Below, piece by piece: positions 41,720 through 58,769 of a stretch of 64,000 nucleotides of DNA. The notes under the pieces are model-generated. The model had not been told where the DNA came from. It worked only from the letters and a program-made list of their open reading frames with translations, and ran no database searches. The translations under genes were made by a program, and so were the position numbers. The DNA is from Deltaproteobacteria bacterium (GTDB lineage: Bacteria > Myxococcota_A > Polyangia > JAAYKL01), in contig JAFGXQ010000172.1 of NCBI GenBank assembly GCA_016936575.1, forward strand, positions 36,078 through 100,077, read 5' to 3'. The number at the start of each line of letters is the position of its first letter. Position 1 is the stretch's first letter.

Positions 41720-42691
41720 CTAGTGCGCAGATTCTGCGAAGTTACTGTTATTAATTTCAATGTCATAGATAAAAACATTCCCCCGATTGTAGACATCATC
41801 AATTAGCTCCGAAATATATTTCTGTCGTTCAAAACTGAATATCTCATTTTCCAGCGTCTTTCGAGCGTCAGTAAATGAGATATCGACTGCCGGCTCCTCA
41901 TTTTTTACAAATATCACATGGTATCCGAATTTGGTTTTTATCGGTTTGGATACTTTTTGTCCGGGATAATCGATCGCGAACGTTCCCTCAACAAACGGCT
42001 TGACGAACCCAGTGTTTCTCTGGTCGAAGGGAGGCAAATCCTCCACTCGAATTTTGGTACCGTCCGCACCGACCGTGGCAACCGCTTGTCGAAACGCTTT
42101 TTCAGAGTCGGCATTAGCTGCTGCAATACTCATCTCTCGGGCAATACGCTTTGCATCGTTATCGGAGTACAAACCGTCTCCCGTCATCGCAAGTGCATGA
42201 ACAACATCTCGCTGAGCGCCATGCACAAAACGAAATTTCTGCGATTCATACCTTTTTTTCAACGTTTCAAGCGGAATACTCTTTTCGGTGAATGCTTCGC
42301 CTTCTTTTTTCAAATACGCCAGCGCCAACGCCTTTTTAAATTCTGAAATAACCGTTTTATCACGAGCATATCCACGGCGACGCGCCTCTTCCTCCAGCAA
42401 ATAGAAATCGATTGCCTCTGCCAACGCTTCCTCTTTCGACAACTTCTGTTGTAATTGCTTCGCCTGAAATTCCACTGTTTCGGGGTAGATAGGAATACCG
42501 TTCACTTGTGCCAGAACCATAGAATCGTTCAGTTTTTTCGCTTTGATATGGCTATCCCATGCCTCGATATTGGTGGACACATTCGGCGCCGAATCCTCAG
42601 ATGAACATCCGATTGAAGAAGCACAGCAGACAACCCCTAAAATAATTACCGAAAATTCAGTGTGAAAATGCTTTTTAAAATGCTTTTTCAT
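41720..42691 (-). CDS. Parvulin-type peptidylprolyl isomerase lipoprotein
   Basis: Lipobox SIGC; VNGIPIYPETVEFQAKQLQQKLSKEEALAEAIDFYLLEEEARRRG; GFVKPFVEGTFAIDYPGQKVSKPIKTKFGYHVIFV. Confidence 0.85.
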   Translation of the reverse strand: MKKHFKKHFHTEFSVIILGVVCCASSIGCSSEDSAPNVSTNIEAWDSHIKAKKLNDSMVLAQVNGIPIYPETVEFQAKQLQQKLSKEEALAEAIDFYLLEEEARRRGYARDKTVISEFKKALALAYLKKEGEAFTEKSIPLETLKKRYESQKFRFVHGAQRDVVHALAMTGDGLYSDNDAKRIAREMSIAAANADSEKAFRQAVATVGADGTKIRVEDLPPFDQRNTGFVKPFVEGTFAIDYPGQKVSKPIKTKFGYHVIFVKNEEPAVDISFTDARKTLENEIFSFERQKYISELIDDVYNRGNVFIYDIEINNSNFAESAH

Positions 42692-43989
42692 TATCGAACT
42701 CGAACCATCGTTCCCTTATCATTCGCGGTTGAATACACAGACCACCATCCCGCAGGTACCGAAGGCGCCGTCCATCGATAAAACCATTCCGCGTCGGCCG
42801 GCGCCATATTCACGCAGCCGTGGCTTTTTCTGTTTCCAAATTTATTATGCCAGTAAACCGCATGCAACGCATAATTTTCATGAAAAAACTGTGTCCACGG
42901 CACATCCTGCAAGGAATACAGTTTCCGTTCTTCCGTCGGCTCAATCACCTCGGAGTCCGAATCCAACTCTTCTTCCTCATCAGTGTTGTCCATGGCAATC
43001 GCAGCCACCTTTACCCAAATACGAAATTGTCCCCTCACCGTTTTCGACGCGCCGTATCGTCCAGTAGATACCATCGTGGCGTACACCGGTTCATCCCCCA
43101 CATATGCAGTAACGATTTGCTGATTCACATCCACGTCGATCCAGCGTTCGTCATCGGCTATCCCCTCCGGCCGGGTTGCATTTGTCGTCACACGAACATC
43201 TTTTCCTGAAACCCAAAGACCATCCGACAGTTGATAAAAATGTTTCTTTTTCACGTCGACCTGCCCCTGCACCGCAAAAAAATCATATCGGCTCAGTTTT
43301 CGAACACGCTGCTCTTTTTGCTCGGCAGGCTCTTGATATGCCCATGCCTCCTGTGAGTTCACCCACCCTACCGGCCATTGCTGGTCGCGACTGACGGGCA
43401 CCCCCTGAAACGTGGAGACACGCCCGGAAACCCGCGCCGCATAGGTGGGAATCAACTTTCCTTCAGGAGTTTTAAAATACTTTTCGCCGTCGATGGATAC
43501 CCGCTTTTCCACACCGAAACCGAACCCCTTGAAAATTTCGCGCGTTTCTTCAACCCACCCATGACTCGACCACTGGTATTCAATCGCCGTTTCCTTTATG
43601 AACGCATATGGCCACGGAGTGACTGCATCGTTTTCCATCGGAGGCTGTTCGATTGCAGCGGGCGCGTCTTCAATCAGTGTGACCCCATTCCCACACACCC
43701 ACCCTTCTTCGTAAACCCGATACCACACATCTCCAGAACAACCATCTCCCTCTTTGCTTTCATAGATGGGCAGACGAGAACCTTTTACAGCCATTCCGCG
43801 CAACTTGTATTTTCCAGAAGGTCCTCGCTTAATCGCCACCCGATGACGCTCTACCAGCAACGAGCCGCCTGAATGCGCCGAAGTGGATGCTCGTTTCGAC
43901 TGTGCCTGTAATGTCCCGGAAGCCATTAACCCAAGCGCTCCAAACATCAACATCGCCGCAATACCTATTGTAATTCTGCGTGTACCCAT
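42691..43989 (-). CDS. L,D-transpeptidase (YkuD family)
   Basis: HAVYWHNKFGNRKSHGCVNMAPADAEWFYRW active site; RWIDVDVNQQIVTAYVGDEPVYATMVSTG. Start placed at MGTRRITIG. Confidence 0.9.
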   Translation of the reverse strand: MGTRRITIGIAAMLMFGALGLMASGTLQAQSKRASTSAHSGGSLLVERHRVAIKRGPSGKYKLRGMAVKGSRLPIYESKEGDGCSGDVWYRVYEEGWVCGNGVTLIEDAPAAIEQPPMENDAVTPWPYAFIKETAIEYQWSSHGWVEETREIFKGFGFGVEKRVSIDGEKYFKTPEGKLIPTYAARVSGRVSTFQGVPVSRDQQWPVGWVNSQEAWAYQEPAEQKEQRVRKLSRYDFFAVQGQVDVKKKHFYQLSDGLWVSGKDVRVTTNATRPEGIADDERWIDVDVNQQIVTAYVGDEPVYATMVSTGRYGASKTVRGQFRIWVKVAAIAMDNTDEEEELDSDSEVIEPTEERKLYSLQDVPWTQFFHENYALHAVYWHNKFGNRKSHGCVNMAPADAEWFYRWTAPSVPAGWWSVYSTANDKGTMVRVR

Positions 43990-44058
43990 TCCCTTTTCCT
44001 TGAAAGTAGAAAATGTAAATCTGTTGGACGGTTTTCGCCAGTGAAACATTCACCCGGT

Positions 44059-45321
44059 TTATTCATCCGTCGAGCGCTTTTTCCCCAGGAAAAATACCAC
44101 CAGAATCGACAGGTAATAAAGTATCACAAGTGGCGTCGCCAGCATAATTTGTGTCACAACATCCGGCGGAGTGATAATCGCAGCGAAAGTTACCGAAAAA
44201 ACGATAAACCAGCGACCAAAGCCGATCAACTGCCGATAGTCGACAATACCGGCATATGCCAGAAAGAAAATCAGTACCGGCAGTTCAAATACCAGGCCGA
44301 ATGCCAGCAACAACTTGATGGCGAAATCCAGATAATCCTTCACCATCAACACAGGCGCCAGCTTCTGTGCTGCCGCATGTACCACTGTCACTCTGTACAC
44401 CGACGGATGCGATGTCGCCTTGCGGTCAAACGCCTTGTAGGTGGTGATTCCGTTTTCAGAAGCGGAAACAATCATTTCCAGATTAATAGGGCGCTCATCT
44501 TTGAAAACCCGAATGGATGAAGGCGCTTCCCCACAGCGTTTTGAATCAAACCGATATATCAGTTGCACCCCCTTGGGCTCCGAAACACCGCGAAGCCTAC
44601 CGCAGTTTTCCCCCACCAGCTTTGCCTCCACCCACTGATATGCAGCGAACAACTTTGCCCATTTGTCTTTCTGTTCTGAACGCTTGGGCGATTTGACGGT
44701 TCCAGCGGATTTCCGGTTCATTTTTTTGTCAGGCGTGCGTTCCGACTTTTCGGCCGATTTCGTCTTACTCCCGGTATCCGCAGACGTTGTTCCGTCATTG
44801 CGATCCGCAGAAGCCTGCAATACTGCAAGGGGCTGGGTTTCCAAATGTTCGACTGTCCCACCGCTTGAAAACTGTAAAAAAAACGAAAAACCGATTGGAA
44901 ACACATAGGTATACGCACCAGCCGCACCCACAATAAACAGTGCCGAAGAAATAATCACAAATGGAAACGCGATTTTCTTTTCTTTCTTGTAAAGCCCCGG
45001 CGAAATAAAACGCCACAGATGATAAAAAATCACCGGAGAAGCGAAAAAAACGCCACCGATGGCTGAAATCTTGAGATAGGCCACAAACGGTTCCATCAAA
45101 CTTTTAAAACTCAACGGGGAAGGCGCCGGCAACCCGGGGACGCTCTTCCAGGCGGTATACAGCGGGGCTTCCAGAAACTGACGCAATTCCTCCCGAAAAA
45201 ACCAGCAGATGAAAATTCCGACCACCACCGCGAGGATGCATTTAATCAATCGCTGACGCAGCTCTTCAAGATGCTCCAAAAACGTCATGGTCTCCTGAGG
45301 CTCTTGTTCGTGCTCGCTCAC
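44059..45321 (-). CDS. tatC: TatC, twin-arginine translocase subunit, with large periplasmic-loop insertion
   Basis: MTFLEHLEELRQRLIKCIL; YLKISAIGGVFFASPVIFYHLWRFISPGLYKKEKK; DYLDFAIKLLLAFGLVFELPVLIFFLAYAGIVDYRQLIGFGRWFIVFSVTFAAIITPPDVVTQIMLATPLVILYYLSI. Confidence 0.94.
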   Translation of the reverse strand: MSEHEQEPQETMTFLEHLEELRQRLIKCILAVVVGIFICWFFREELRQFLEAPLYTAWKSVPGLPAPSPLSFKSLMEPFVAYLKISAIGGVFFASPVIFYHLWRFISPGLYKKEKKIAFPFVIISSALFIVGAAGAYTYVFPIGFSFFLQFSSGGTVEHLETQPLAVLQASADRNDGTTSADTGSKTKSAEKSERTPDKKMNRKSAGTVKSPKRSEQKDKWAKLFAAYQWVEAKLVGENCGRLRGVSEPKGVQLIYRFDSKRCGEAPSSIRVFKDERPINLEMIVSASENGITTYKAFDRKATSHPSVYRVTVVHAAAQKLAPVLMVKDYLDFAIKLLLAFGLVFELPVLIFFLAYAGIVDYRQLIGFGRWFIVFSVTFAAIITPPDVVTQIMLATPLVILYYLSILVVFFLGKKRSTDE

Positions 45322-45323
45322 AA

Positions 45324-45698
45324 CTATCCCTTCATCTCTTTTTTCACGTCGTTCATACCTTGGGCAACGTCATCAGAGACCGCTGTCAAATCTTTCTGAA
45401 CACCCGATTTCACATCTCCGATGTCATCCTGAAGTGCCTTGTATTCTTCATCGAGGGCTCGAGCTTCGGCGTACACAGACTCGGCCTTGGCCATCATTTC
45501 ATCGGTGATTTCAGACTTCACCTGATTCAACTCCGCCACTTCCGCATCGATCTGATTTCGTAAATCCCGACTGGCCGCCTTCAGCTGCACCACTACGTAG
45601 GCAATTTTACTGAACAGCTCCGGCAGTTTCTGCGGCCCCACAAACAACAACAGGATCAGTGCGATAACAATGAACTCCGTCCAGCCGATACCCGTCAC
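45324..45698 (-). CDS. tatB: TatB/TatA family Sec-independent translocase subunit
   Basis: MTGIGWTEFIVIALILLLFVGPQKLPELFSKIAYVVVQLKAASRDLRNQID. Confidence 0.88.
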   Translation of the reverse strand: MTGIGWTEFIVIALILLLFVGPQKLPELFSKIAYVVVQLKAASRDLRNQIDAEVAELNQVKSEITDEMMAKAESVYAEARALDEEYKALQDDIGDVKSGVQKDLTAVSDDVAQGMNDVKKEMKG

Positions 45699-45739: not shown

Positions 45740-47350
45740 CTAATTGGATGAGGTGAGGCCGCGCATCCGTTTGTGCAGCTGTTTCACGCTCTGCAGCGCT
45801 GTTTCGTTGTGGTCTACCGTCTGTGTCAATTTCTCCACCAGGGAAAGCACTTCCTGGGTACTGGTGTTGTGCTGGTGATGCGACATATTCAATTCGCTTA
45901 CCATTTTTGAAATCGACTCAATCGCCTCGGTAATCTGTCGGCCGCCTTTGGCCTGCTCAATGGTGGAACGCTCCACATGCTGAGTGATGGACCGCATCTT
46001 CTCCGCACCGCGGATAATCACTTCCGACCCTTTGGCCTGCTCCGAAGTGGCCATTGCGATTTGCTGCACCGACTCCGCAATGCGACTGATGGTATCGGTC
46101 ACCTGCTTCGACCCTTTCGACTGCTCTACCGTTGCCCGCGCAATGGACCGCATCATACTGGTGGATTTCTGAGAGCTTTCCAGAATCTTACGCAACGCTC
46201 GCTCGGCATCGTCTGAAACCTGCACCCCTTTATCAACATTCTGATTACCACGTTCTACCGCCGAAATCGCATTGATGGTTTCGGATTGAATGGTTTTAAT
46301 CAGATTGGCGATCTCTTTGGTGGATACCCCGGAACGCTCCGCCAAATCCTTGATTTCGTCCGCCACCACCGCAAATCCTTTTCCGTGTTCCCCCGCCTGA
46401 GCCGCGATAATCGCCGCGTTCAACGCCAACAGGTTGGTTTGTTCCGCCACATCATCAATCACGCTTAAAATCTGTCCAATGGCCTCGATCTTTTTCCCCA
46501 GATTCAAAATCACATCCATGGCCTCTTGAGAGGACCCTTTCGCTTCTTTGATCACCGCGATGGTCTTGGCTACCGCATCAGCAGATCGTTCGGCATCTCT
46601 GGCAACACCCTCGGAAATAATAGCGGTTTCATTGGCATTCGTCTGCACCTGATTAATCGAAACATCCATCTCATTCATCGCGGAGGACGTCTCTTCAGCG
46701 GTAGTTGACAGCTCTTCCACATTCTCGGCAACCTCTTTCACAGACACCGCCATCTCTCCAATGGAGTTCACCGTATCTCGCACAGAGACGCCCATGGCCG
46801 TCATGTTTTCAGCCACCTCCTCGTTGGTGGTGGTCATTTGTAAGATGGATGATGCGCCCTGCTCCGCTGCGGATGCAAGAGATTCCACGTGAGAAGCGAT
46901 GGCGGCAAAAGCCACCGACATATTCTTCACCGCACTTTGCGTTTGACTCACGTCCCCCTGCTGCTCAGTCAAGTCTCTTTCAAATAATGCAATCACTTCC
47001 TCACAATCTTCCACCACACGTTGCATTTCGACCACTTTCTTCTGTGCCGCTGCCGTGTCACCGTCCAACTGTGCAATCAGAGAATCAATATCGCCGCACA
47101 ATGCCGAAAACACCCCGCTGGTTTCAGGCGCCTTCTTACCCGGCACCACCCTTGCATCGGAAATCCATCGCCGGACAGCATTAATATCCCGTTGAACCAC
47201 CAATCTGGAAACCAACATGTACATCACACTCGCAGATGCCAACACCGCTATCACCAGAAGGATGTCGTCGTTTTGTGGAACCAACATACCGGTGAGCATC
47301 AACCCAATCGCTGCAATTGAAAAAAATATTTCGGGTACCCCGCGTTTCAT
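45740..47350 (-). CDS. Methyl-accepting chemotaxis protein
   Basis: Signalling hairpin [58 protein letters not shown]. Confidence 0.95.
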
Positions 47351-57590: not shown

Positions 57591-58769
57591 ATGCCCGATG
57601 ACAAACAGACCGCCCCTGTAAAAGGCGCCTTCCTTGTATTCAGTGCAATTGCCGTTCTATTGCTGGTCGGAATCGGGCTGGCCGCTGAACTGACCCGGAT
57701 ACACGCGAATACCCACCAGAATCCGGAGTTTGAATCCATGTGCGCCATCAGCGATGGGCTGAACTGCGAAACGGTGGCGTTGTCACCGTATTCTATTTTT
57801 CTGAATCTCCCGGTCAGCGTGTGGGGGCTGTTCGGATACCTCACCATCTTTGCTGTGGCGGTGGCTTCCTTGTGGAAGAAAGCCGCTTCGCCATTGTACG
57901 GAGCCATGTTCGGACTCTGCACGGTGGCGTTTCTGTCATCGGCTACACTGGCATTTATCTCATTTACGAAGATTGACTCTTTGTGCCTGTTCTGCATGGG
58001 TACGTATACTGTGAATACCTTGCTGATGACGCTTGTCACTGTTGCGCTGGTGCGCGGCCAAAGAAACCCGATTCGATCCATCGTCGATGACATTACCACA
58101 CTCGTTCGAAAACCGTTGTTGCTCGGGATGCTCTTCATAATCGGCACTGCGCCGATTGGCGTAGGATACGCACTAATCACGCCCTACTGGCAAACGGCCG
58201 GATTCAACGAAATTCCGACCCTGCCCACCGGTGTGGATACGGATGGATATCACTGGGTGGGCGCCCAAACGCCCAAAGTGACCATTATTGAATACAGCGA
58301 CTACGAATGCCCCTACTGCCGAACCGCACATCGACAGCTTCGCGAACTGATCAGTCATTACGCAAAGGATGTGCGACTGGTTCATCGTCACTTTCCGCTC
58401 GACCAGAAATGCAACCCGCGCGTTCGTCAAAAATTTCATCAGTTCGCCTGCCATTTTGCCAGCGCCGCCGAATGCGCCGCCAAACAGGACAAATTCTGGG
58501 AAATGAATGATGCGATCATTTCCAGCCAGGATCACCAGAAGCCCCAAACCATTGATGTAGAAAAATTCGCCATCCAATTGGGAATTGATCGCAGCGAATT
58601 TGATAACTGCATGAAGGAAGAAACGGTTCAAAAAGATATTCTGCGGAACATCAATGCGGGCATTAATGACTACGTTTCGGCAACCCCCACATTCATGGTA
58701 AACGGTCAGAAATTCAAAGGACGTATTACCGAAGAACAGCTGCAGCGGTTGTTGCGAGTGTCGGAGTAG
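57591..58769 (+). CDS. VKOR - DsbA-like thioredoxin fusion protein
   Basis: Multi-TM VKOR region (MCAISDGLNCETVALSPYSIFLNLPVSVWGLFGYL; DSLCLFCMGTYTVN) plus YSDYECPYCRTAHRQLRELISHYAKDVRLVHRHFPLD. Confidence 0.9.
   Translation: MPDDKQTAPVKGAFLVFSAIAVLLLVGIGLAAELTRIHANTHQNPEFESMCAISDGLNCETVALSPYSIFLNLPVSVWGLFGYLTIFAVAVASLWKKAASPLYGAMFGLCTVAFLSSATLAFISFTKIDSLCLFCMGTYTVNTLLMTLVTVALVRGQRNPIRSIVDDITTLVRKPLLLGMLFIIGTAPIGVGYALITPYWQTAGFNEIPTLPTGVDTDGYHWVGAQTPKVTIIEYSDYECPYCRTAHRQLRELISHYAKDVRLVHRHFPLDQKCNPRVRQKFHQFACHFASAAECAAKQDKFWEMNDAIISSQDHQKPQTIDVEKFAIQLGIDRSEFDNCMKEETVQKDILRNINAGINDYVSATPTFMVNGQKFKGRITEEQLQRLLRVSE

Follow-up and report, generated by a model that had tools for sequence, protein, structure and literature searches.

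The only TatC protein of the window (the whole stretch of 64,000 nucleotides analysed here) carries a folded domain in P2, the loop between TM3 and TM4. A large P2 insert is already known from M. xanthus. What is new is that a different and seemingly unrelated domain occupies this loop in the family of uncultured bacteria to which the window belongs. By analogy with M. xanthus, we propose, with a probability of about one half, that the domain serves as a cap that would stabilise or position the TatC trimer. The evidence comes from the anatomy of the insert, from its distribution among related genomes, from its comparison with other TatC inserts and from the gene neighbourhood.

A genome search returned a single TatC, encoded on the minus strand in an uninterrupted reading frame of 420 codons running from 45321 to 44059. 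The gene is organised in the following way:

44059..45321, minus strand: tatC, 420 aa from GTG, or 409 aa from ATG at residue 12
44863..45321, minus strand: TatC core with TM1-TM3, residues 1-153 (Pfam stretch 16-155; helices in the model)
44359..44862, minus strand: P2 insert, residues 154-321, about 168 extra residues (gap between the Pfam stretches, alignment)
44059..44358, minus strand: TatC core with TM4-TM6, residues 322-420, carrying the FELP and TPPDVxTQ motifs

The Pfam TatC profile (PF00902) matches the protein with an E-value of 2.9e-64 and 217 bits, for a cut-off of 25.1. This match is split in two, a first stretch covering residues 16-155 and a second one resuming at TM4. The model has the six-helix TatC fold, as judged from its superposition on 4B4A, 4HTS, and 9DZZ (TMt 0.72-0.83), and the functional motifs FELP and TPPDVxTQ are both present. 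As the core retains these transport motifs, the window TatC should be a working Tat receptor, and the function of its core is likely intact. The start of the gene is ambiguous (window 45288-45321, minus strand), either at the GTG of residue 1 or at the ATG of residue 12; residue 12 is a methionine in all 14 TatC sequences of the family.

An insert of about 165 residues in P2, at 44362-44859, had been noticed in the sequence-only reading. It is borne out here, with measured limits at residues 154-321 (44359-44862). The insert is bounded by the end of TM3 (FFLQFS) and by the conserved LxPVLM sequence preceding TM4, that is, by the limits of P2. By alignment, it enters just after the position of E. 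coli A141, and we infer from TatC topology that it lies on the periplasmic side. The following elements can be distinguished within it:

44839..44853, minus strand: short strand predicted after TM3, residues 157-161 (residues 146-150 of the full-length AlphaFold2 model)
44683..44811, minus strand: Ser/Lys-rich linker predicted to be disordered, residues 171-213 (pLDDT <50, model residues 160-202)
44380..44667, minus strand: predicted folded domain, with a helix (219-236) and a beta-sandwich (241-314) (AlphaFold2, 14 sequences)
44602..44604, minus strand: Cys240, invariant in 14/14 sequences
44533..44535, minus strand: Cys263, invariant in 14/14 sequences

The Ser/Lys-rich linker and the two cysteines, Cys240 and Cys263, are thus as first described. 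Structure prediction of the insert, which had been suggested as a check, gives a domain of about 95 residues made up of one helix and an Ig-like beta-sandwich, with block pLDDT values of 82-92 over the sandwich (AlphaFold2). The domain would be tethered to TM3 by the long flexible linker and joined to TM4 by a short connection. The strand and linker together vary freely in length, from 30 to 165 aa across the family, and the linker is net basic in some members, including that of the window, and net acidic in others. Mean pairwise identity is 67% for either half of the core but falls to 24% for the domain and to 20% for the strand and linker taken together.

The window belongs to a draft assembly of 252 contigs, and an assembly artefact or a foreign sequence placed in frame had been named beforehand as a possible refutation. 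However, 14 genomes carry this domain at this position, each time within an uninterrupted frame. Moreover, the base composition of the insert is not foreign-looking but close to that of its flanks (GC 0.52-0.53 vs. 0.475; GC3 0.53-0.56 vs. 0.55-0.58). Because the insert recurs in 13 other genomes, an artefact has practically no chance of being the explanation.

The insert is present in all of the sampled genomes of the window's family (14/14, from 10 genera), and no loss was seen. In a search of 59 genomes, each of the 13 other family members yielded a TatC, with open frames of 381-629 aa, and the family alignment shows a conserved core with the insert in every member. The alignment with related TatC sequences called for by the sequence-only reading leads to the same picture. 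When the L of FFL and the P preceding TM4 are taken as landmarks throughout, the P2 stretch is large in the family only, with 133-270 residues vs. 7-29 in 115 other TatC loci, a comparison set biased by its many Psychrobacter sequences. Among 318 class genomes, the domain profile matches the TatC of the 14 family genomes and no other TatC. One genome, G271, gives a marginal domain match (E=0.009, on C29) that is separate from its TatC (on C81). No second copy of the domain was found in the window's own genome, where the next match has an E-value of 0.55. In a survey of the phylum, TatC was found in 271 of 285 genomes and, among the matches listed, nearly all were one continuous match. Genomes of the phylum giving two matches were considered as candidates for split P2 inserts; most of them were rechecked, and these were rejected, as they have second copies or fragments elsewhere.

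In a tree of the TatC core, the 14 insert-bearing sequences form one clade (95/92), nested among insert-free relatives of the same class. The gene directly upstream of tatC helps to follow the history of the locus:

45324..45698, minus strand: TatB-like protein (TatA_B_E family), directly upstream of tatC, adjacency kept

The two genes, tatB and tatC, are likewise adjacent across the family and in relatives from the same class. The order MCP-tatB-tatC is found in the family and is shared with several class relatives devoid of the insert, which points to an insertion into an inherited locus. Since the insert-bearers form one clade among insert-free relatives, the data fit a single gain by the family ancestor, within a vertically inherited locus. 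The earliest-branching family member, L016 (genome G006), has the shortest insert, with 128 aa, of which 30 aa make up the strand and linker. Elongation of the linker may thus have come later.

Inside the domain proper, the two cysteines are the only invariant residues of the 14-sequence alignment; all other invariant columns fall in the LxPVLM sequence leading into TM4. More generally, the conserved positions are mostly hydrophobic-core, Gly/Pro, or Cys residues. Going by the strands predicted in the model, both cysteines share one end of the first hairpin, which makes a Cys240-Cys263 disulfide plausible. VKOR is matched four times in the genome, DsbB not at all. One VKOR protein is encoded in the window:

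57591..58769, plus strand: VKOR protein, 392 aa, with a CPYC-containing C-terminal part (context only)

This protein is the probable source of periplasmic disulfides. Its C-terminal part looks, by eye, like a DsbA-like fusion. Overall, the idea of an added periplasmic domain, possibly stabilised by a disulfide, is upheld by the position in P2, the sandwich model, the cysteines conserved in 14/14 sequences, and the presence of VKOR in the genome. Thioredoxin-like CXXC chemistry in the insert was considered and rejected, the two cysteines being separated by 22-25 residues across the 14 family members.

The same reading had gone further in proposing a role in substrate handling or quality control. 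The domain would indeed face the compartment that receives the substrates, and two cysteines could in principle take part in redox chemistry. However, the spacing of the cysteines is not that of a CXXC motif, a conserved exposed site is not apparent, and the conserved positions are mostly structural. In addition, the signal peptide is the only part of the substrate seen to touch the core complex in published structures, and transport is argued to take place at the periphery of the complex (PMC13323110). A domain that handles or checks emerging substrates at the periplasmic side is thus very unlikely, and this part of the proposal finds no support.

Sequence searches in Pfam, NCBIfam, and the PDB gave no match to the insert domain. 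With Foldseek, a similar strand arrangement was found in Ig-like domains, namely beta-2-microglobulin, MHC C-type domains, and the N-terminal sandwich of the glycosidase Apg, the matches being weak (E 0.006-0.05, best 0.006; TM normalised to the query 0.35-0.52).

Other TatC proteins also have large extra sequences on the periplasmic side. Kneuper et al. (2012) reported lengths of 14-248 aa for P1 and 19-183 aa for P2, with M. xanthus at the upper end of the P2 range (PMC3712464). The 248-aa P1 is that of Pirellula staleyi (PMC3712464). In Nitratifractor salsuginis TatC (9E02), the extra sequence is located by alignment between TM1 and TM2, hence in P1 rather than in P2, and is disordered in cryo-EM. 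The case of M. xanthus is closer, its otherwise normal TatC likewise having a sizeable folded domain in P2; its insert site falls in the same flanking alignment columns as that of the family insert. The M. xanthus insert was shown to form a homotrimer augmenting TatC-TatC contacts (Deme et al., 2026; PMC13323110; 9E0S for the crystal structure, 9E03 for cryo-EM), whereas for the family domain we only infer such an arrangement.

Despite their common location, the two domains look unrelated at the sequence level. The M. xanthus insert is rich in Ala, Glu, and Leu, helical-looking, and devoid of cysteine, whereas the family domain is predicted to be a beta-sandwich with two invariant cysteines; the M. 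xanthus sequence was taken from the PDB copy, with the query insert X-masked, and its helical character is read from sequence, not structure. The family domain profile left the M. xanthus insert unmatched at E<=10 in the PDB copy holding 9E0S and 9E03. The superposition of the full model on the M. xanthus insert is poor (TMt 0.51), the orientation of the domain in the monomer model being uncertain, and 9E0S is absent from the best 50 structure matches listed for the family domain. A search for M. xanthus-like TatC in 377 genomes of the phylum, run with a fragment of the M. xanthus protein and without a positive control, gave no match at E<=1e-38. The same spot would appear to have been filled by seemingly unrelated domains in two lineages, and folded P2 add-ons arose more than once. 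As for the novelty implied by the sequence-only reading, it holds for the domain of this family but not for the large P2 loop itself, the 183 residues of M. xanthus being on record since 2012.

The P1/P2 cap is essential in TatC. It is a site of TatC-TatC contact, and the G144C variant in E. coli P2 self-cross-links (PMC5102672). In the mechanism that we favour, the domain would have been gained once in the family ancestor and would sit in P2 of an otherwise normal TatC. Three P2 domains would then cap the TatC trimer on its periplasmic side, stabilising TatC-TatC packing or positioning the complex in the envelope, a role likened to the one apparently played by the unrelated insert of M. xanthus. 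The mostly structural nature of the conserved positions supports this cap, as does the location of the insert near insertion-tolerant positions, single-residue insertions at N139 and P142 being tolerated in E. coli P2 (PMC3712464). On the other hand, the domain is loosely placed on the TM3 side, given a linker that can reach 165 aa, and, at 24% identity vs. 67% for the core, it is more variable than tight packing on the core suggests. The latter objection is softened by the fact that lineage-specificity is common to the M. xanthus insert and the family domain.

The tolerance of this region would also be compatible with a nearly neutral insert that the ancestor acquired in a permissive loop and that has been retained since because it is harmless, as would the drift of the linker in length and composition and the fast divergence of the domain. 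This explanation is rather unlikely, the insert being kept in 14/14 genomes from 10 genera without loss, with two invariant cysteines and a conserved hydrophobic pattern. With regard to the periplasmic cap, a second unrelated domain at the M. xanthus spot suggests repeated reinforcement or extension and offers a natural way of testing what this part of TatC does. In practical terms, TatC proteins of this family offer extra mass outside the membrane, a property sought to help cryo-EM of Tat complexes.

Genes for tatB, tatC, a YkuD L,D-transpeptidase, and a PPIC-type PPIase-like protein follow one another at 41720-45698 on the minus strand, with gaps of at most 9 bases, an arrangement like that of one operon. 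This gene order is kept in G001, G002, and G006. Ig-like sandwiches often bind proteins or glycans. With YkuD and PPIase genes close downstream of tatC, the domain could instead be a docking module for a periplasmic partner, such as peptidoglycan or an envelope protein, and would confine export to particular sites or link it to the assembly of the envelope. We regard this explanation as possible but tentative. Indeed, few residues are conserved outside the hydrophobic-core, Gly/Pro, and Cys positions, so that no obvious binding surface emerges, and in several other family loci, including some truncated by the end of their contig, the YkuD and PPIase genes were not found beside tatC. A wider proposal, that P2 is a recurrent docking site for unrelated domains and that a disulfide-bonded sandwich here senses or recruits a partner, the cell wall or the redox state, thereby regulating Tat export from the trans side, seems doubtful. 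At the other end of the block, an MCP-like gene (45740-47350, minus strand) lies just upstream of tatB. A second TatA_B_E protein, encoded elsewhere in the genome, is presumably TatA.
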